From contig JAKQBN010000046.1 in assembly GCA_029559475.1 (NCBI GenBank), positions 1 to 58,018 of the forward strand: a stretch of 58,018 nucleotides of DNA, in the 5' to 3' direction. The position numbers were made by a program, and so were the translations under genes. The stretch is from a bacterium (GTDB lineage: Bacteria > UBA4055). Shown piece after piece: positions 47,126 through 57,921 of this stretch (positions are counted from its first letter, which is position 1; each line of letters begins with the position of its first letter). The notes under the pieces are model-generated. The model searched no databases and was not told the origin of the DNA. It was given only the letters and a program-made list of their open reading frames with translations.

Positions 47126-47995
47126 ATGAAGATAAAAGTTTATACCTTGAACGCATTCGTGAAAGAGGGGAGAGGAGGGAATCCCGCAGGAGTCGTATTA
47201 TCTGCGGATTTGATAACAGACGCAGAAATGCAGCTGATAGCTAAAATAGTTGGTTTTTCAGAGACTGCATTTGTTTTAAAAACTAATAATGCTGATTACG
47301 GGTTGAGGTATTTTACACCCGCAGGCGAAGTTCCGCTTTGCGGACACGCAACCGTCGCATCTTTCGGCCTGCTTGCTTTAAAAGGTCCAGTATCAGCAGG
47401 TAAATATAAACTCGAAACGAAAGCAGGGATCTTAAACGTTGAAGTTTTACCGGATAAAAAGATTCTGATGGATCAGAACCTGCCTGAATATTATGAAACG
47501 ATAGATAAAAATGAGATCGCAGAGTCACTTGAAATCCCTGTAGAAGCCATCTGTTCCGAACTTCCTGTTCAGGTCGTTTCGACAGGATTGAAAGACATAA
47601 TCGTACCTGTCAGATCTTTAAAAAAACTGCTTGAGATCAGACCGTATTTTCATAAGATAGCTGAAGTAAGCAGAAAATACGATGGCGCAGGCTATCACGT
47701 ATTCGCAACTGAGACGAAAAATAATTCAACTGCGCACTGCAGAAATTTCGCACCGCTTTACGATATACCTGAAGAATCAGCGACGGGCACCGCTTCGGGC
47801 GCACTTGCCTGCTATATGTTCAAATACGGAATAATAAACGAAGAACAGGCTGAAAACATTATATTCGAGCAGGGCTATTATATGGGCAGCCCGTCAGAAA
47901 TTTCAGCTTCGCTTGAAATTATGAACAGAAATATCACAGGCGTGAAAATCGGCGGAATATCAGGCGATTTAAAAGATATCGAAATTGAAATATAG
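47126..47995 (+). CDS. PhzF-family isomerase/epimerase-like protein
   Basis: This 289-residue protein has the twofold diaminopimelate-epimerase-like fold of PhzF: GNPAGVVL near residue 18 with GFSETAFVL following (catalytic-type Glu), RYFTPAGEVPLCGHATVAS near 55, and in the second half NFAPLYDIPEESATGTASGAL. Only phenazine producers use PhzF for that pathway; here the substrate is unknown and no other phenazine gene is present. There is no Shine-Dalgarno sequence; see the promoter at 47091-47119. Confidence 0.85.
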   Translation: MKIKVYTLNAFVKEGRGGNPAGVVLSADLITDAEMQLIAKIVGFSETAFVLKTNNADYGLRYFTPAGEVPLCGHATVASFGLLALKGPVSAGKYKLETKAGILNVEVLPDKKILMDQNLPEYYETIDKNEIAESLEIPVEAICSELPVQVVSTGLKDIIVPVRSLKKLLEIRPYFHKIAEVSRKYDGAGYHVFATETKNNSTAHCRNFAPLYDIPEESATGTASGALACYMFKYGIINEEQAENIIFEQGYYMGSPSEISASLEIMNRNITGVKIGGISGDLKDIEIEI

Positions 47996-48296: not shown

Positions 48297-50576
48297 TTAT
48301 TTCTCTGTCGGGACGACTATACCTTTGATTATTATATTCTGGAAGAATACGAAAACGGCGAATGTCGGTATCGCGGCGATCACAAGCGCGGCATATCCTA
48401 CGCCGGGGCTTGATCTCTGCGACAGCTGATAGATCTGGACCATTAATGTCCACATGCTTTCATCCTGGCAGACGATGAACGCGAACATGAAATTTCTGTA
48501 CGCTGCATTGAATGCTCCCAAGGCTATAACGGCCATGATCGGTTTTGATAATGACATTGCAATACGGGTGAAGATAGTGATCTCGCCGGCTCCGTCAACT
48601 CTTGCAGATTCGAACAGCTCCTTCGGCAGCGAATCAAAGAATCCCTTTAACAGAAATATGAAATATCCGTCGGCTGCTGCTGGCAGAATTAAAGCCCAGA
48701 ATGTGTTCAGCAGATTGAGGTTTTTCAGGATCAGAAAGTTCGGGATGCCCATGACCATCGGCGGGAACGCCATTGTAAGCATCAGAAAGAAGATTATCCA
48801 GTAATTGTACCGCAGGTTAAATCTGCTCATAGCGTATGCCGCAAGCGGATTGACTATCAGCGAAACGAGAATAGCCAGCAGGCAGTACCACAGCGTATTG
48901 AATACAGCTCTGCCGTTATTGTATATTTCATCGAGCACCATTATGTAATTTCTCGTGAGCTGCTCTTTAAAGATCGCTTTTTTATTAGCTTTGAACACGA
49001 AGTAATCTATATTCTGATAATCAATGCTGAAGCTGTCGAAATCTTCAGTTTTCAGCCTGTAAGCTGAATTCAGGCTGTCAATGCTCCCGTACTTATTGTT
49101 TAGATAAGCAATCCATCTTCCGTTTTCGGCCTGAGATATCGATAAAAATCTCGGGTCAGCATGGTTTAATACGAAATCGCGCCACAGCTCCTCATGTTTT
49201 TTTCCCGCTGGAAGATATGCCGCCGGATAAATATTCAGTTCGTTATCATAATTTGTACCGTAAGTTTCATTCAGAGCCTTTACATCAAGCTCTTCAGATC
49301 CTGTGATCTTTTTCAGATAAGATATGTAATCGAACTGGCTTAAAGGGGAGACGCTTACATTTGAAAGATCCGAATTCTTTATAAATTCCGTCCAGTCTTT
49401 CTTCATAGCGAGATTATTCTCGGGTGAATTTGCCGGAAGAAAAACTTCCTTAAAATCTTTATAACCGAGAGAATAGGAATCATTTAGTGCTTCAGCATTC
49501 TTATATTTATTCTTTAAGAACTCTCTGAAATCATATTCCGCGCTTTGAAGAATGATCGTCTCCGGTACGGCGAGATTCTCGATGTAGAAAATATAATCGA
49601 GGATAGGCGCACCGCTTTTAAAAGCGTCTTTTAAGGTAATTTCAGAAAAATCAGAAATTCCTGCATCCCATGATGAATTGAGCATGGATACTTCGGTGTA
49701 TTTTTTTTTCAGAAAATCTTTTAATCCGTTCACGCCGGTAGAATCGAGCGTAATATGATGAATGTTAAGCACTTTTTTTACATAGTGTATCCAATGATCT
49801 CTTAACGGTCCCTGCGGTACTGTGCGAGTCAGAATTATCCTGTCCCATGACACGAAATCCGTTCCGAGGCTGTCGTTTAAAGCCTGAAGATTTCCTCTGT
49901 AAAACGGCAATAATTCATTGTTGACGAAGTGTCCGTCAAGCGACATGAAGCTCTTCTGATCTAAAGGGAGTTCACGCCTGAATTTATCATAGGGCACCAT
50001 CATGCCTGTCATCTCGGTCGTGAACTTTCTCGAAAGAATGTCGCGGGATTCTTCTCTGACATCCTCCCATGAAGGTACTGAGAATCCGTAGATACTGTTC
50101 AGTTTTGCCAGATCGCCGCCTGATTCAGCGTACATTCTGTCTCTGAACGCTCTTTCGTTCACGGTATAAACACCGCGAGAGAACTGTTCCGAGACCGCGA
50201 AATCAAATTCGGTATAATCTTTATGCCGCGGAGTTATGAATTCATTCCAGTCATCGTTCATCGCTTCATTCGGTATGTCCGGGAATTTTAGAAATTCAAC
50301 CGTGACGAATTTGTTTTTATACTGTGAAGTGAAATCGAAAGCCTGTTCGTTATATCTTGATTCGATATACTTTTTATAAAGGACTTCATCATTATAAAAA
50401 TACTGGGGAACGATATCCATTCCTCTTGAATCCACTCTGCTTTTGAATGAAGCCGACATCATCATCAGGAAAGGGTAGATCATCGTGACAGCACCGATAA
50501 GCAGAACGATATGAATATTCATGTTAAGTAATCTAACTTTAAGCGATTTTCTGCCTACTTTTCCGATGATGCTCAA
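48297..50576 (-). CDS. MalG-like ABC permease with giant repeat-bearing extracytoplasmic insertion
   Basis: This 759-residue protein should be about 280 residues for a MalG-type sugar permease. TM1 is at about 21-41; the remaining TM helices and the EAA loop (SARVDGAGEITIFTRIAMSLSKPI, 657-680) occupy 557-759. The roughly 510 residues between them (about 45-555) are hydrophilic and would sit outside the membrane. They hold six diverged repeats around an LN(S/D/E)xxY/W/L motif (see the repeat entry). The core permease is intact, so the protein probably works in import with the SBP-permease fusion upstream. The insertion may bind glycan or contact the fused binding protein. Confidence 0.85.
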   Translation of the reverse strand: MSIIGKVGRKSLKVRLLNMNIHIVLLIGAVTMIYPFLMMMSASFKSRVDSRGMDIVPQYFYNDEVLYKKYIESRYNEQAFDFTSQYKNKFVTVEFLKFPDIPNEAMNDDWNEFITPRHKDYTEFDFAVSEQFSRGVYTVNERAFRDRMYAESGGDLAKLNSIYGFSVPSWEDVREESRDILSRKFTTEMTGMMVPYDKFRRELPLDQKSFMSLDGHFVNNELLPFYRGNLQALNDSLGTDFVSWDRIILTRTVPQGPLRDHWIHYVKKVLNIHHITLDSTGVNGLKDFLKKKYTEVSMLNSSWDAGISDFSEITLKDAFKSGAPILDYIFYIENLAVPETIILQSAEYDFREFLKNKYKNAEALNDSYSLGYKDFKEVFLPANSPENNLAMKKDWTEFIKNSDLSNVSVSPLSQFDYISYLKKITGSEELDVKALNETYGTNYDNELNIYPAAYLPAGKKHEELWRDFVLNHADPRFLSISQAENGRWIAYLNNKYGSIDSLNSAYRLKTEDFDSFSIDYQNIDYFVFKANKKAIFKEQLTRNYIMVLDEIYNNGRAVFNTLWYCLLAILVSLIVNPLAAYAMSRFNLRYNYWIIFFLMLTMAFPPMVMGIPNFLILKNLNLLNTFWALILPAAADGYFIFLLKGFFDSLPKELFESARVDGAGEITIFTRIAMSLSKPIMAVIALGAFNAAYRNFMFAFIVCQDESMWTLMVQIYQLSQRSSPGVGYAALVIAAIPTFAVFVFFQNIIIKGIVVPTEK
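49020..50147 (-). repeat. Six diverged 65-74-residue repeats inside the permease
   Basis: Within the insertion, the motif Leu-Asn followed by an aromatic and a (D/S)(F/W)xx(I/V) tail recurs with LN at residues 159, 233, 299, 364, 435 and 502. Examples are KLNSIYGFSVPSWEDV, ALNDSLGTDFVSWDRI, ALNDSYSLGYKDFKEV and SLNSAYRLKTEDFDSF. Most copies are preceded by a helix such as FLKKKY, FLKNKY or YLNNKYGS. The spacing is 74, 66, 65, 71 and 67 residues. The copies are recognisable only as protein, not at the DNA level, so the duplication is old. Confidence 0.75.
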
Positions 50577-50586
50577 TTTAATCCCG

Positions 50587-53010
50587 TCAGTTTGATTTAA
50601 ATTCCATATTGGACAGTTTTTTGATCTGGAAAACCGTCACGAACATTAGCAGAAGTCCCAGCATCCACGCCATAGTCGTGGCTATGCCGAAATTCAAATA
50701 AAGATACGCTTTTTCGAATATTAACAGATCGGCCACCCTTGTAGCTTCATTCGGACCTCCGAAGGTCATGATCAGTATGAATTCGCTCTGCTGCGTGGCT
50801 GCGATGAAAGCGGCAATGAACTGAATAAATATCAGCGATTTGAGAGCGGGGAAGACGATATGCCTAATCTTCTGAAAGAATCCCGCGCCGTCAATATCGG
50901 CAGCCTCATAAATATCATCTGGTATTCCCTTGAGCGCGGCGAGATAGATCAGAGAACCCGGCCCGAGCCCGGCCCAGACTGAAGGAAGCACTGTCAGGAT
51001 CATCGCGAGGCTTTCATCCTTTATCCACCGGCTCTTTTCAAAACCGAGCGCGAGAAGTATCTGATTCAGCCCGCCGGCATCCGATGGATCGTATAATAAT
51101 TTCCACAGATAAATGACGATAACACCGCTGATAACGGCCGGCATGTAATAAATGACCCTGTAAACGATCTTTCCCTGCGGTACTTCCTGAAGAAGTATTG
51201 CGAGCAGCAGCGGAGGAAGGAAGCCGAAAGAAAGTGACAAAACCATGTAATAAAGGGTCTTTCCTAGAGCCGACCACCAGACGGGATCGAAAAGGACATC
51301 GGCGAAATTCGCCAGACCCACCCATTCAGAATTTCCTATCAGCCTGTAATTTTGGAAGGCCATGAAAGATCCCATTACCATAGGTACATATTTCCACAGA
51401 AGGATGGATATAAGAGCGGGAGCTAAAAGTGTCGCCACGAGAACTGCGATACGCGGATTCTTTTTCCTTCTCTCAAGTCCTGTCTTAGGAGTGAATATCT
51501 TCCAAACTCTGAATAGCGTAAATCCGAACACGACGAATATAAAGATCGCTACAAGAACCGCGGTGCTGTTCCTCTTATTCCGTTCTTCCTTTGATATCTT
51601 GCCGATCATATTCTTATTTGTAATGTCAACTGCATTGTCAAATATCGCAGCTATATTTTTATCTTTTTCCTCTTCATCGGCTCCAAGTTCGCCCTTCTCC
51701 TCAAGAGAGATGCAGTTCTCAACCGGGTTCGTCATATATTCATATATCTTCTGACAGTTCTTTCCGTACGGTTCAGGCTTTCCGTTCTCGAGAGCTTCCT
51801 CGAAGGTCTGAATCCAGTCGGGCGGGGTAAATTTTACATATTCCTCATATCCGAATTTTTTAAGATAAAGCGGATTCTGCATCCTTCCGAAGCCTGCATT
51901 GATCATTATCTCAAGTCGTATTTTTCTTGCTTCATCAGAATCATAAAAGCGGATATAACTCCAGGCAGCGTCCCTGACTCTTTGAGGATCCCTGTCGCCC
52001 AGACCGCCGTTATTGGATATTCCGGCTCCTGAGAATATTCCCATCATCCTGCAGTTGATTTCTGAGCCTCTCAATCCCGTCGGTCCTTTCGGCGGAGGAG
52101 CGAACCCCCACAGATTAGGATCAAGATCGCCTCCGAGCCTCTTATCATCCATATATCCCATCAGGATGCCCAGTTTCCCGTCATCCCGCATATATCCCCA
52201 GTTGCCTTCCCGGTAAACATATCCCTGCTGGAGATTGCCGTTATGATCTTTCCATTTTGTAGTAATAAGCTTCAGATAGAATTTCATAGCTTCAACGGCA
52301 GGTTTTCCGTTATATGAAGCTGTCCATTCTCCGGTTACCGGATCTCGCACTACGGCGTCCCCGCCTGCGCTCCAAAGATAAGTGATCCAGTCGTAAGCAG
52401 CCTCCCGTCCGCTCGCGAGGTAAAGACCGTATGAACCTTCATCCGGCATGGTGAGCCGTTTTGCGACTTCAAGCAGCTCATTCCAGTCTTTCGGCGGCTG
52501 TTCGGGATCAAGACCGGCTTTGTAGAACAGGTCTTTTCTGTAAAGCATTACCCTGACCAGCGTTTCATACGGCAGGCACCAGTAATGCTCGTCTTTTTCA
52601 CCTGTTCTGTTTCTTTTCACAACAGGTTTGACAGGCTTTGCGATCCTGCTCTTTAATTCTTCATCCGTAAGCTGAGCTATATAATCATCAAGAGGGTAGA
52701 GGAAGTTGTTCTCGATATATGTTGAAGACTGTCTGAAATTGACATAAATAACATCCGGGGAGACACCGCCTGCGATAGCCATCAGAGGGCGGGCGTCCAT
52801 ATCCATGTTCTCAAGCTCTATCCCTGAATAACCGCGAAGCTCGATATTCGGAAATTTTTTCTTGAAGGCATTGATCACAGCCATATCGGCTCTGTTGAAA
52901 GGTTCGTTACTCTTCGCGTCAGGCAGCTTGAAGACCTTTAAAATGACATTATCGTCCGAAATCAGAAGTGAAACGAAAATAAATAATATTAAGGTAAAAT
53001 ATCTTCTCAT
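50587..53010 (-). CDS. Fused sugar-binding protein and MalF-like ABC permease
   Basis: This 807-residue protein has a signal/anchor at about 4-18; residues 20-470 are a family 1 extracellular solute-binding protein (FKKKFPNIELRGYSG, SPDVIYVNFRQSS, YRKDLFYKAGLDPEQPPKDWNELLEVAKRL, DWITYLWSAGGD). A TM helix at about 483-501 leads into a MalF-type permease at about 520-807 with an EAA loop, YEAADIDGAGFFQKIRHIVFP (701-721). Binding protein and permease are normally separate genes. The fused form keeps one binding domain tethered to each translocator. It lies 10 bp before the second permease gene. Confidence 0.9.
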   Translation of the reverse strand: MRRYFTLILFIFVSLLISDDNVILKVFKLPDAKSNEPFNRADMAVINAFKKKFPNIELRGYSGIELENMDMDARPLMAIAGGVSPDVIYVNFRQSSTYIENNFLYPLDDYIAQLTDEELKSRIAKPVKPVVKRNRTGEKDEHYWCLPYETLVRVMLYRKDLFYKAGLDPEQPPKDWNELLEVAKRLTMPDEGSYGLYLASGREAAYDWITYLWSAGGDAVVRDPVTGEWTASYNGKPAVEAMKFYLKLITTKWKDHNGNLQQGYVYREGNWGYMRDDGKLGILMGYMDDKRLGGDLDPNLWGFAPPPKGPTGLRGSEINCRMMGIFSGAGISNNGGLGDRDPQRVRDAAWSYIRFYDSDEARKIRLEIMINAGFGRMQNPLYLKKFGYEEYVKFTPPDWIQTFEEALENGKPEPYGKNCQKIYEYMTNPVENCISLEEKGELGADEEEKDKNIAAIFDNAVDITNKNMIGKISKEERNKRNSTAVLVAIFIFVVFGFTLFRVWKIFTPKTGLERRKKNPRIAVLVATLLAPALISILLWKYVPMVMGSFMAFQNYRLIGNSEWVGLANFADVLFDPVWWSALGKTLYYMVLSLSFGFLPPLLLAILLQEVPQGKIVYRVIYYMPAVISGVIVIYLWKLLYDPSDAGGLNQILLALGFEKSRWIKDESLAMILTVLPSVWAGLGPGSLIYLAALKGIPDDIYEAADIDGAGFFQKIRHIVFPALKSLIFIQFIAAFIAATQQSEFILIMTFGGPNEATRVADLLIFEKAYLYLNFGIATTMAWMLGLLLMFVTVFQIKKLSNMEFKSN

Positions 53011-53018
53011 TTAATAAA

Positions 53019-54119
53019 TTACAGCCTGTTCTCAGTTTTTGCGTCAAAGAAATGCGCTTTGCCTATATTGACTGGCAGTTCGACCGTTTCCCCGACTGAA
53101 TAACTGGTCCCGCCCGATTCTATCCTTGAAATAATTTCATGCTTACCGCAGGTCAGGTAAATGTATATCTCCGAACCGAGAGGTTCTATTACATCTATTC
53201 TGCCTTTTATGACCGGGTTTGTTGAGTTGCTTTTAGCCGTCAGAGATCCTATTTCCTCCGGTCTGATCCCCATGATGATATTCTCATAACCCGAGCCTGA
53301 AAGGAAAGTAAGATCATTTCCGAGCTTGAGACTTATGCCGTCATCCGACTTGAAGAACCTGTCCCCGCCTGAATTTATGATACTGCCGTAAAAGAAATTC
53401 ATCTGGGGCATTCCGATAAATCCCGCCGTGAATTTATTGGCGGGTTTATTATATAATTCAAGCGGTTCAGCTACCTGCTGAATAAATCCGTCTTTCATGA
53501 CCACGATCCTGTCGCCCATGGTCATAGCTTCGGTCTGATCGTGCGTGACGTATATCATTGTCGCGTTTAAACTACTATGTAGCCTTTTTATCTCGGTGCG
53601 CATCTGTGTCCTGAGCTTTGCGTCAAGATTGGACAACGGTTCGTCGAAAAGGAAAACGGAAGGTTTTCTTACTATCGCTCTGCCGACAGCCACACGCTGT
53701 CTTTGTCCGCCCGAAAGCGCACCCGGTCTTCTGTTTAAAAGATCTCCGATGCCTAAGATCTCGGCAGCTGACTTCACCGAGCTTTCAATTTCTTTTTTAG
53801 GGAACTTTCTGAGCTTCAGCCCGAAAGCCATATTTTCGAATACGCTCATGTGCGGATAAAGCGCGTAGTTCTGGAATACCATGGCTATATTTCTGTCCTT
53901 CGGAAGAACTTCATTGACCACTTTTCCGTCAATTGAGATCGTTCCTGAAGTAATTTCTTCAAGCCCCGCGATCATTCTGAGAGTGGTCGACTTTCCGCAA
54001 CCTGATGGACCCACGAAGACAACGAATTCCTTATCTTTTATCTCAAGATTAAAATCGTTTACGGCGACATTTTTATTGTCGTAAACCTTCTTTACATTTT
54101 TCAGGATCACTTCAGCCAT
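53019..54119 (-). CDS. MalK/UgpC-type sugar ABC transporter ATPase
   Basis: This 366-residue ATPase has Walker A VGPSGCGKST (37-45), signature LSGGQRQRVAVGRAI, Walker B VFLFDEPLSNLDAKLR and the switch His in YVTHDQTEAM. A C-terminal OB/TOBE regulatory domain (about 240-360, MGIRPEEI) is typical of carbohydrate importers of the CUT1 class. It powers the importer encoded by the next two genes and follows the GH130 gene by 2 bp, so sugar uptake and processing are co-expressed. Confidence 0.93.
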   Translation of the reverse strand: MAEVILKNVKKVYDNKNVAVNDFNLEIKDKEFVVFVGPSGCGKSTTLRMIAGLEEITSGTISIDGKVVNEVLPKDRNIAMVFQNYALYPHMSVFENMAFGLKLRKFPKKEIESSVKSAAEILGIGDLLNRRPGALSGGQRQRVAVGRAIVRKPSVFLFDEPLSNLDAKLRTQMRTEIKRLHSSLNATMIYVTHDQTEAMTMGDRIVVMKDGFIQQVAEPLELYNKPANKFTAGFIGMPQMNFFYGSIINSGGDRFFKSDDGISLKLGNDLTFLSGSGYENIIMGIRPEEIGSLTAKSNSTNPVIKGRIDVIEPLGSEIYIYLTCGKHEIISRIESGGTSYSVGETVELPVNIGKAHFFDAKTENRL

Positions 54120-54121
54120 AT

Positions 54122-55066
54122 TTATTCCATGCTTTTGATAAGTTCGTCAACTGTTGTGAAAGCCAGTCCGGTGCAGGTATCCGCGCAGCCGTAATAAAGA
54201 GCTATCCGACCGGACTTTTCATCATTAAGGGCGGCGCACGGGAAAACTACGTTCGGAACATCTCCCACGCACTCATAATACTCCCACGGCGCCAATATGT
54301 AATTTCTTGTTCTTTTCAAAACTTTCCACGGCTCTTTCAGGTCTAAAAGGGCTGCTCCCATGCTGTAAACATATCCGTTGCATGATGTCAGCACTCCGTG
54401 ATAGATCAGCAGCCAGCCTTTCTTTGTTTCGATCGGTACAGGGCCTGCGCCTACTTTGGTGCTCTGCCATCCGTCGTTGATAGTACCCATAACATGCCTG
54501 TGTTTACCCCAGAAAGTCAGGTCAGGGCTTTCGGAATAAAATATATCCCCGAAGGCTGTATGTCCTGTATCGCTCGGCCTTGAGAGCATAGCGTAATTCT
54601 CGTTTATCTTTTTGGGGAACAGCACTCCGTTCCTGTTATATGGTAAAAAGGCGTTTTCAAGCTGATGGAATTTTTTAAAATCCTTCGTCCAGCCTATTCC
54701 GATAGTCGGCCCGAAATATCCGTTGCACCAGGTTACGTAATAAATATCTCCGATCTTCGTTACGCGCGGATCGTAGGCATAAACGAAATTCCCGATCTCT
54801 TTATCTTCGCAGATGAATTTTATCGGTTTTTCATCGATATCCCATTTGATCCCGTCCTTTGAAAATCCCGCGTGGATCCTCATCTGACGCGCTCTGTTGT
54901 CGCATCTGAATACACCTGCGAAACCGTCCTTATAGGGCACGGCAGCGCTGTTGAAAATGCTGTTCGAAGTTTTCAGCTGGTCTCTTTCTATTACAGGGTT
55001 TTTTGTATAACGCCAGACAGGTCCGTTATAACCTTCCGGTTTATCTTCCCATGGGATCGGTTTCAT
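54122..55066 (-). CDS. GH130-family glycoside phosphorylase/hydrolase
   Basis: This 314-residue five-bladed beta-propeller of family GH130 has the general acid Asp99 in [14 protein letters not shown]. Supporting blade motifs include [60 protein letters not shown], and LLIYHGV. GH130 enzymes mostly phosphorolyse beta-1,2- or beta-1,4-mannosides (mannosyl-GlcNAc, mannobiose) and some hydrolyse them; there is no signal peptide, so it acts in the cytoplasm on imported sugar. Start overlaps the previous stop as ATGA. Subfamily and exact linkage cannot be settled by eye. Confidence 0.88.
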
Positions 55067-55819: not shown

Positions 55820-56902
55820 ATGAGACAAATTGCACCATATACCGTTCTATCAAATCTGCCAGTTGAAAGGGAGAAAGTAGAAACCATTGAGATATTAAAA
55901 CAGGCAAATAAGGCAGGTTCCGCTCTTGCCGAATTGAAAGGATTAGCTAAAACTATCCCGAATCAGGAAATTCTGATCAATGCCTTAGTCCTGCAGGAAG
56001 CAAAGGACAGTTCGGAAATAGAGAATATTGTAACGACACAGGATGAATTATACAAGGCGTTAACTGCAACAAACCCGAATATTTCACAAGGAACAAAGGA
56101 AGTCGTCAACTACAGAAAAGCTTTATTCCGCGGCTTTGATCTTATCAAAAGTCAAGGTTTTTTAAGAATAAACGACATCGTTACCATACAACAGGAACTT
56201 GTTGAAAATACTGCCGGTATCAGAAATACACCGGGCACTGTGTTAAAGAATGATAAAACCGGAGAAATTGTTTATACACCGCCTCAGAACAAACAGGAAA
56301 TCATGGATCTGCTGACAAATTTAGTCCTGCACTACAATGAACAAAATGACGATCTGCCGCCTTTGATCAATCTTGCGATCCTTCACTATCAATTTGAAAG
56401 TATTCACCCATTCTACGACGGAAACGGAAGAACGGGAAGAATTCTAAATATTCTGTATCTGATATTAAACAATCTGATCGAAATTCCCATTCTTTATTTA
56501 AGCTCATACATAATAAAAAACAAAGCTGATTACTACAAACTTCTCAATCAAACAAACAAAACTGGCGACTGGAAAGACTGGATATTATATATCCTCAAAG
56601 CTGTCGAGATTACTTCATTACAAACTATAAAAAAAATCAATTCGATAAACGCACTTCTTGAACAAACAATTCTGCAAGTACAGAAAGAATCTCCGAAGAT
56701 CTATAAAAAAGAGTTGATTGAATTACTCTTCGAACAGCCATACTCGAAAATTGATTTCGTCGTCAACAGGCTCAATGTAGAAAGAAAAGCAGCATCCCGC
56801 TATCTTAAAGAGCTTGAAAACATAGGGATTCTTAAATCCTATAAAGCAGGAAGAGAGACTTTATACATAAATACAAGACTGATCGACGTGCTGAAACAGT
56901 AG
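55820..56902 (+). CDS. Fic-family AMP-transferase, class II (self-inhibited)
   Basis: This 360-residue protein has an N-terminal Fic_N-type region. An inhibitory-helix motif S-x3-E-N lies at residues 64-69 (SSEIEN), and the catalytic Fic motif HPFYDGNGRTGR at 196-207 is complete. A winged-helix C-terminus follows (about 295-355, LNVERKAASRYLKELENIGIL). Such proteins transfer AMP to target hydroxyl groups; the inhibitory Glu normally blocks ATP binding until released. The target is unknown. It sits 41 bp upstream of the GrpB-domain gene, in accessory DNA. Confidence 0.9.
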   Translation: MRQIAPYTVLSNLPVEREKVETIEILKQANKAGSALAELKGLAKTIPNQEILINALVLQEAKDSSEIENIVTTQDELYKALTATNPNISQGTKEVVNYRKALFRGFDLIKSQGFLRINDIVTIQQELVENTAGIRNTPGTVLKNDKTGEIVYTPPQNKQEIMDLLTNLVLHYNEQNDDLPPLINLAILHYQFESIHPFYDGNGRTGRILNILYLILNNLIEIPILYLSSYIIKNKADYYKLLNQTNKTGDWKDWILYILKAVEITSLQTIKKINSINALLEQTILQVQKESPKIYKKELIELLFEQPYSKIDFVVNRLNVERKAASRYLKELENIGILKSYKAGRETLYINTRLIDVLKQ

Positions 56903-56943: not shown

Positions 56944-57921
56944 ATGATTTTATCTGAATACGATCCGAATTGGGAATACGAATATCGAAAACTTGGCCTG
57001 TTTTATATTGAAATCCTAGGTGAATTATTAGTCAGAATTGAGCATGTGGGAAGCACAGCTATATACGGTATTAAAGCAAAACCAATACTTGATATTGATC
57101 TTGTTATTGAAGATAATTCAGTCCTTTCCGAAGTCGTAAAAAAACTCAAAACGATCGGCTACACGCATAACGGAGATCAGGGTATTCCTGGAAGAGAAGC
57201 ATTTCTGCGTGATGATCAGTCTGTCCCTTGGAATCAAAAAAATAAAACATGGATGAAACATCATCTCTATGTCTGCACAAAAGACAGCCGGGAATTAGAC
57301 AGACACATTCAGTTTCGTGACTACCTGAACACAAATTCTGAAGCCGCAAAAGAATATGAAAATATAAAACTCGAAATAGAATCAAGATCGAACGGAGACA
57401 GAAAATTATACGCTGACATCAAAGAGAACGACGGTGTCTGTTCCGCCTATGTGGAGAGAGTATTAGCGATCGTAGCCCAAAAGAAATATCTTAGGGAATT
57501 AAAATATAGATTTTCATTACAGCTAAGAACTATTAATAGATTAATCAGTATTTGTGCTTTGCCAATGGGGTTAGTAACTAGACAAGAAGGTGACATCATT
57601 ACTGATTATTTTTATTTCTGTGTTACAAAGGCATGCAAATCTCTAAAAGCAATAAAATTACTATATGAAAACAAATACTTTGAAGATTCTTTATCGCTTT
57701 TACGGAGTACTTATGAATCATATCTCAACACGAGGTTCATGTTGTACTCAAAAGACGATAAACGTATAGACTTTCTAGTAAGAAATCCAATAAGATTAAA
57801 TAATGAATCGTTTTTTTATTTGACAAAGGAAAATGGTAAGAAAGATAGAAATAAAATAATTGATACCGGAAGAAATAAGATTGTAGATTCTTGTCAAAGT
57901 GTCCCACTGATTCCTGTTTAA
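56944..57921 (+). CDS. GrpB-domain protein with C-terminal helical domain, 3' end cut by an IS
   Basis: Residues 1-175 are a GrpB/UPF0157 nucleotidyltransferase-fold domain (EHVGSTAIYGIKAKPILDIDLV near residue 33, with the GS and DID active-site-type residues; HHLYVCTKDSRELDRHIQFRDYL). Residues 180-316 are a separate helical domain resembling DUF5677-type proteins (YFEDSLSLLRSTYESYLNTRFML). From codon 317 (57892) the reading frame runs into what looks like an insertion-sequence end and stops after nine foreign residues, so the native C-terminus is lost. The function of the fusion is unknown; a defence or toxin-antitoxin role is possible given the fic neighbour. Confidence 0.7.
   Translation: MILSEYDPNWEYEYRKLGLFYIEILGELLVRIEHVGSTAIYGIKAKPILDIDLVIEDNSVLSEVVKKLKTIGYTHNGDQGIPGREAFLRDDQSVPWNQKNKTWMKHHLYVCTKDSRELDRHIQFRDYLNTNSEAAKEYENIKLEIESRSNGDRKLYADIKENDGVCSAYVERVLAIVAQKKYLRELKYRFSLQLRTINRLISICALPMGLVTRQEGDIITDYFYFCVTKACKSLKAIKLLYENKYFEDSLSLLRSTYESYLNTRFMLYSKDDKRIDFLVRNPIRLNNESFFYLTKENGKKDRNKIIDTGRNKIVDSCQSVPLIPV

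Follow-up and report, generated by a model that had tools for sequence, protein, structure and literature searches.

A MalG-type permease with a tandem array of units related to subdomain H of GH42 glycosidases, accompanied by a binding protein fused to MalF

The window, a 58,018-nucleotide stretch of bacterial DNA, encodes a transport system that sequence and gene context identify as a type I (MalFGK2-like) carbohydrate importer, and its MalG-type permease (P0001) carries an array of tandem units in the P1 loop. Judged on sequence and predicted fold together, the array unit is a non-catalytic copy of subdomain H of GH42 glycosidases (clan GH-A). The permease is accompanied by a binding protein (SBP) fused to the partner subunit, MalF (P0002). 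Taken as a whole, these features may describe a glycosidase subdomain that, without its enzyme, has been turned into a repeat arm of the MalG P1 loop, where it would cradle the tethered SBP or hand it glycans, giving a one-SBP-per-transporter machine unlike the maltose system with its free SBP; we advance this composite reading tentatively, at somewhat less than even chances. The second permease, a TOBE-domain ATPase and the family SBP are all present in the window operon (Table 1), in which the P0002 gene lies upstream of the P0001 gene and the GH130 enzyme is likely to be substrate-related. Elsewhere in the window, a PhzF protein stands alone (47126-47995); at another locus, outside the window (L080:4482-7277 (-)), a single 932 aa open frame combines a GH106-like region with a complete PhzC-PhzF domain that follows it. 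A SoFic-like Fic protein (55820-56902 (+)) is followed in the window by a GrpB + DUF5677 protein (56944-57921 (+)).

Table 1. Positions of the array permease, its partner and the adjoining genes in the window.
Feature	Window coordinates	Strand	Basis or remarks
MalG-type permease with array insertion, P0001	48297..50576	(-)	759 aa, BPD_transp_1 and GH42 matches
TM2-TM6 translocation core of P0001, residues 555-759	48300..48914	(-)	89% mean pairwise identity, Delongbacteria
EAA loop of P0001, PKELFESARVDGAGE..., residues about 651-671	48564..48626	(-)	sequence, invariant core residues
P1-loop insertion of P0001, residues 47-553, extracytoplasmic (inferred)	48918..50438	(-)	
Unit 6, residues 483-544	48945..49130	(-)	LN at 502; last helix heads towards TM2
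Unit 5, residues 412-482	49131..49343	(-)	LN at 435
Unit 4, residues 346-411	49344..49541	(-)	LN at 364; alone over Pfam GH42 cut-off
Unit 3, residues 280-345	49542..49739	(-)	LN at 299; model region superposing on GH42
Unit 2, residues 213-279	49740..49940	(-)	LN at 233; of all units the best conserved in Delongbacteria
Unit 1, about residues 139-176	50049..50162	(-)	degenerate, LN at 159
Unit 0, about residues 64-115	50232..50387	(-)	degenerate, no LN; unit HMM E 4e-4
TM1 of P0001, residues 19-44	50445..50522	(-)	hydropathy; kept in full-length relatives
SBP::MalF fusion, P0002, 807 aa	50587..53010	(-)	SBP_bac_1 at 41-362, BPD_transp_1 at 616-792
Extra TM helix of P0002, residues 479-507	51490..51576	(-)	hydropathy; links SBP domain to MalF; then basic KTGLERRKKNPR
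MalK/UgpC-type ATPase with OB/TOBE regulatory domain	53019..54119	(-)	UgpC model 477 bits, over cut-off
GH130 mannoside phosphorylase-like enzyme	54122..55066	(-)	PF04041 E 5.5e-73

The description of P0001 in an earlier, sequence-only reading, as a MalG-like permease that keeps TM1 and a C-terminal core with its EAA loop, is borne out by the profile matches: PF00528 (BPD_transp_1) scores over its cut-off (E 4.5e-11, residues 577-753), and the UgpE (E 2.5e-19) and MalG (E 8e-18) models match the core from residue 558 on, the equivalog cut-off not being reached. The C-terminal 205 residues are thus a MalG/UgpE-type core. Hydropathy gives TM-like stretches at residues 19-44 and then from 555 onward, leaving a gap of 507 residues between TM1 and TM2, in agreement with the insertion of about 510 residues proposed after TM1; as residue 558 aligns to position 77 of the UgpE model, about 481 of these residues are extra. 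The short P1 loop of MalG, which is usual in the superfamily rather than diagnostic of it, is absent. The start codon is TTG, a choice supported by the ATG found at the same alignment column in all full-length relatives, and the N-terminus that it sets ahead of TM1 is basic (KVGRKSLKVR) and presumably cytoplasmic, from which, by the positive-inside rule and the TM topology, we infer that the insertion lies on the extracytoplasmic side. Three further MalG-type permeases, of 406 and 485-486 aa, were found to have different TM1-TM2 insertions with no Pfam match (L057:1483-2700 (-), L065:1474-2931 (-) and L070:504-1958 (+)), and insertions may have entered the MalG P1 loop repeatedly.

To compare the insertion with itself, a profile of eight relatives was aligned against its own columns. 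The best off-diagonal match scored 29.1 (residues 259-321 against 462-524), compared with a maximum of 12.5 in 100 column shuffles, and a chance origin of the repeats was rejected on this basis; pairwise hhalign comparisons of the units reach E 8e-13 to 4e-12 among units 3, 4 and 6, and 5e-10 for units 2 and 5, with unit 1 weaker. The internal repeats on which the sequence-only reading depended are therefore significant, and the six LN-centered motifs that it had placed at 65-74-residue spacing are present as described, with LN pairs at residues 159, 233, 299, 364, 435 and 502 (spacings 74, 66, 65, 71 and 67). Its count and its boundaries need revision. A degenerate seventh unit (E 4e-4) precedes the six, the array extends beyond window position 49020 to residue 544 (window 48945), and the motif marks only part of what recurs, since the 63-residue length of the off-diagonal match makes the unit a full period of about 66 residues. 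Built out family-wide to 44 sequences, a unit HMM recovers seven units in P0001 (66-114, 153-174, 226-269, 287-315, 350-401, 430-476 and 487-515), which grade into five strong units and a weak first two. At the same cut-off, the HMM gave three weak matches in 45 reversed sequences; the unit consensus is RYraYLrkRYggdIeaLNaaYGTeYtSFedVtPPaerPersalaaDWeeFvrtklPaR.

The resemblance to GH42 glycosidases, which the sequence-only reading had pointed out, is confirmed. Pfam Glyco_hydro_42 exceeds its gathering score at residues 343-402 of P0001 (E 3.6e-7, 30.3 bits vs 21), and unit 4 by itself matches model positions 152-213 (E 1.4e-6). The match recurs at E ≤ 0.01 in seven of the eight Delongbacteria array permeases and in most of those scanned from other groups (E down to 7e-14). 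Searched against the PDB, the permease-unit profile found 25 sequences at E ≤ 0.01, all 25 of them glycosidases or a related glucosyltransferase, spanning GH42, GH50, GH167, GH14 and others. The pattern common to the units and GH42 reads F/Y-L-K-x-K-Y-G ... L-N-x-x-W/Y-G-T ... S-F/W-x-x-I ... D-W/F-x-x-F. Among detectable relatives of the unit outside permeases, all are glycosidases or glycosyltransferases except one contractile-injection-system protein. This protein, encoded at L022:1-2196 (+) on G297:C315, is a CIS12-like contractile-injection/phage-tail protein (Tail_P2_I, TIGR02242) with two tandem GH42-type units, at residues about 501-549 and 564-613, so that the unit exists outside both enzymes and permeases. 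By tblastn, neither these tail-protein units were found in phages nor the P0001 insertion in plasmids or phages.

Structure predictions point to the same part of the enzyme. The AlphaFold2 model of the P0001 insertion (from three sequences; mean pLDDT 51.7, with central units at about 70-85) shows a helix, a short strand and two helices in each strong unit, and secondary structure is regular from unit to unit in the predicted models, at a pTM of 0.35. The full-length P0001 model, also from three sequences, is of low confidence (pLDDT 42.5, pTM 0.28). In Foldseek, nearly all of the top rows for the insertion model are barrel glycosidases, with a best E of 1.2 that is not significant. VIA-align was used as a second look at these rows, and its top 27 entries are without exception barrel glycosidases or a related glucosyltransferase; model residues 202-294 (P0001 about 248-340) superpose on GH42, mostly with an rmsd of 1.2-2.9 Å over 55-70 residues and with Z up to 7.0, which is below 8 and comes from a model of moderate confidence. 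As these Z values are modest and the Foldseek E-values not significant, sequence and structure were weighed together. In GH42, the superposed part (8ibs range 160-241) follows directly on the catalytic acid/base (Glu-160, PMC10688820). Subdomain H is the segment between strand 4 and helix 4, a protein-contact element in GH42 and GH164 that has been implicated in trimerization (PMC5725463, PMC7105311).

Because Pfam scores Glyco_hydro_42 over its gathering threshold in P0001, the insertion could be taken for a glycosidase acting on the substrate ahead of its import. The permease matches cover only positions 147-218 of the 376 in the GH42 model, and both the acid/base (position 136) and the nucleophile (position 295; PMC5725463) fall outside this range, so that the units hold no catalytic residue and no barrel. 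No family member scanned matches the (beta/alpha)8 barrel or the segments that hold the acid/base and the nucleophile. The absence of a catalytic barrel noted from the sequence alone thus stands. A catalytic role for the insertion was rejected on these grounds and we consider it extremely improbable.

The enzymes to which the unit is related also invite the suggestion that the arm binds glycans, its units holding oligosaccharide chains near the pore and feeding them to the tethered SBP. Nearly all non-permease relatives of the unit are glycosidases or glycosyltransferases, and in BiBga42A two residues at the helix tips of the subdomain H region, Trp-200 and Phe-221, touch sugar in the neighboring subunit (PMC10688820). 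The operon context also points to carbohydrates: in addition to the GH130 gene of the window, a GH38 alpha-mannosidase lies near the array permease in two relatives, and from this context a mannoside is a plausible substrate for the Delongbacteria transporter. One of these two relatives was checked to have a class II aldolase as well; two other relatives have a ROK kinase nearby, and G080 a DUF2961 protein. Against glycan binding, the GH42 match lies outside both catalytic residues, and the best-conserved unit positions are those of the pattern common to GH42 and therefore look structural. A conserved exposed aromatic platform could not be shown in the units, and no result favors glycan binding specifically. 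We regard this role as rather unlikely. In the array permeases scanned, no CBM-family model matched, and the structure predicted for the unit is helical.

A search for other permeases with an insertion after TM1, which the sequence-only reading had proposed, revealed a family of about 100 genomes with the array architecture. Among 386 genomes sampled from the whole domain, array permeases are confined to four phylum-level groups. In Delongbacteria, the phylum of the window, nine of 13 genomes match, eight with the insertion and one through a fragment of the C-terminal part that lies at the end of a contig; P0001 has orthologs in eight further genomes of this phylum, the one with the fragment included. 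The phylum of G016, suspected to be Armatimonadota, has the permease in 94 of 201 genomes, its open frames mostly of 500-840 aa, and two smaller groups complete the set. One of these, that of G313, is uncertain, since the G313 genome shows 5% contamination, the contigs bearing its copies are short and both sister genomes are without an array permease. A tree made with FastTree alone unites the array-permease cores in one clade, set apart from the cores of 25 ordinary MalG proteins (SH-like support 1.0, branch 0.62), which suggests that the architecture probably arose once.

Within the family, arrays have about 2-7 units each, with 1-3 counted at protein lengths of 503-536 aa, 3-6 in most proteins of 573-667 aa and seven in P0001. 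Among Delongbacteria, pairwise identity is 40-58% in the array, compared with 89% in the TM core, so the array diverges much faster. Such rapid divergence is what a neutral, functionless insertion, or a degenerate or misassembled frame, would produce. However, the seven full-length Delongbacteria copies keep an open frame, a similar insertion length (503-509 residues) and the repeat register, and the family is present in four phylum-level groups; we give this explanation next to no weight. A repeat that is itself kept while its sequence drifts and its copy number varies from 2 to 7 would fit a spacer or oligomerization arm, for example a rod or collar that reaches out to the peptidoglycan or the outer membrane, or that pairs transporters through trimer-type contacts like those in which subdomain H takes part in GH42 and GH164. 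No peptidoglycan-binding or outer-membrane anchor was recognized in the arm, and we judge a structural role of this kind improbable.

The partner subunit provides the context for the role that we prefer. The UgpA model covers residues 523-797 of P0002, corresponding to a permease of UgpA size that lacks a P2 domain, to which the SBP domain is joined through an extra TM helix. In Delongbacteria, G080 and G313, the array permease is found together with the SBP::MalF fusion, and of 20 loci in the large phylum, 11 have a MalF-like neighbor with SBP sequence within the stretch analyzed. Across the 201 genomes of the G016 phylum, a close SBP::MalF homolog was found in 88 of the 94 array carriers, whereas all 107 remaining genomes are without it (Fisher p 2e-50, a value inflated by genome relatedness). 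The association holds even in family f5, whose genomes have both genes although these are widely separated or on separate contigs. Two SBP::MalF copies (G541:C1:2619447-2621720 and G474:C1:2180742-2182985) have one in-frame stop each, TGA and TAG, respectively, which may stem from sequencing error, decay or recoding.

We propose that the tethered SBP docks onto, or is cradled by, the array of the MalG P1 loop, a role to which we assign close to an even chance. About seven tandem copies of subdomain H would form an extracytoplasmic arm positioned over the translocation pathway, where it would serve as a protein-protein docking surface. Rather than being free, the SBP is fused to MalF via the extra TM helix, and the arm would orient it over the pore, replacing both the normal P1 contact and the MalF-P2 domain that the UgpA-sized MalF lacks. 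Contact of MalE with MalF-P2 and MalG-P1 has been reported (Daus 2007, as cited in PMC3150292), and the position of the array in this same MalG-P1 loop, together with its strict co-occurrence with SBP::MalF, lends docking circumstantial support. The protein-contact role of subdomain H in GH42 and GH164 and the partner specificity, maintained even where the genes are unlinked, also favor it. On the other hand, co-occurrence is expected for any two subunits of one transporter, and a precise interface need not tolerate the fast drift of the array or its range of 2-7 units.

Other SBP::MalF fusions also bear on docking. Fusions of 764-835 aa adjoin ordinary MalG permeases of 293-307 aa at L158, L160 and L161 (G221, G016 and G164, in whose lineages tethered binding proteins are common), so tethering alone needs no arm, and the idea that the array is required because the SBP is tethered was rejected as a general rule. 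The array is instead tied to one transporter subfamily rather than to SBP tethering as such. At L159:3581-5317 (+) in G016, a 579-aa frame encoding a MalG-type permease with an extra N-terminal hydrophobic sequence adjoins another SBP::MalF fusion.

With the E. coli MalFGK2-MalE and UgpBAEC systems, which are CUT1-like type I carbohydrate importers, the window system shares a MalG/UgpE-type core with EAA loop, a MalF/UgpA-type partner, a MalK/UgpC-type TOBE ATPase and an SBP_bac_1 binding domain. It differs in a P1 loop that is about 480 residues longer and holds GH42-type units, in the fusion of the SBP to MalF via an extra TM and in the absence of MalF-P2. The P2 domain of enterobacterial MalF is likewise a large extracytoplasmic domain in a loop of a maltose-type permease and contacts the SBP, but it belongs to another subunit and another loop and is a single domain, and no sequence relation to the array was found. 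In sequence pattern and predicted fold, the units resemble GH42 subdomain H (1KWG, 3TTS, 8IBT), with similar segments in GH14, GH50, GH164 and GH167. Unlike the enzymes, they are tandem and sit in a transporter, without barrel, acid/base or nucleophile. OpuA and GlnPQ serve substrate classes other than those of a carbohydrate importer, and we know of no array on the partner subunit of either. They resemble the window system in that the SBP is covalently tied to the TMD (PMC11065425 for OpuA).

In the open-licence papers searched, no description of the array-permease layout came to light, in line with the earlier impression that no described system shares it. The importer type is already known, as is the unit inside enzymes; it is their combination that was not found described, and the GH42 + BPD_transp_1 architecture is presumably already visible in domain databases. 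For annotation, the family flags GH42 matches that are not enzymes, as domain annotation labels part of this permease family beta-galactosidase. For the biology of the transporters, it presents an import machine in which a subdomain taken from an enzyme serves anew as a tandem repeat. With the SBP on one subunit and the repeat arm on the other, it is a natural test of how much rebuilding SBP-permease docking allows, and the range of arm lengths from 2 to 7 units provides ready-made variants for experiments.
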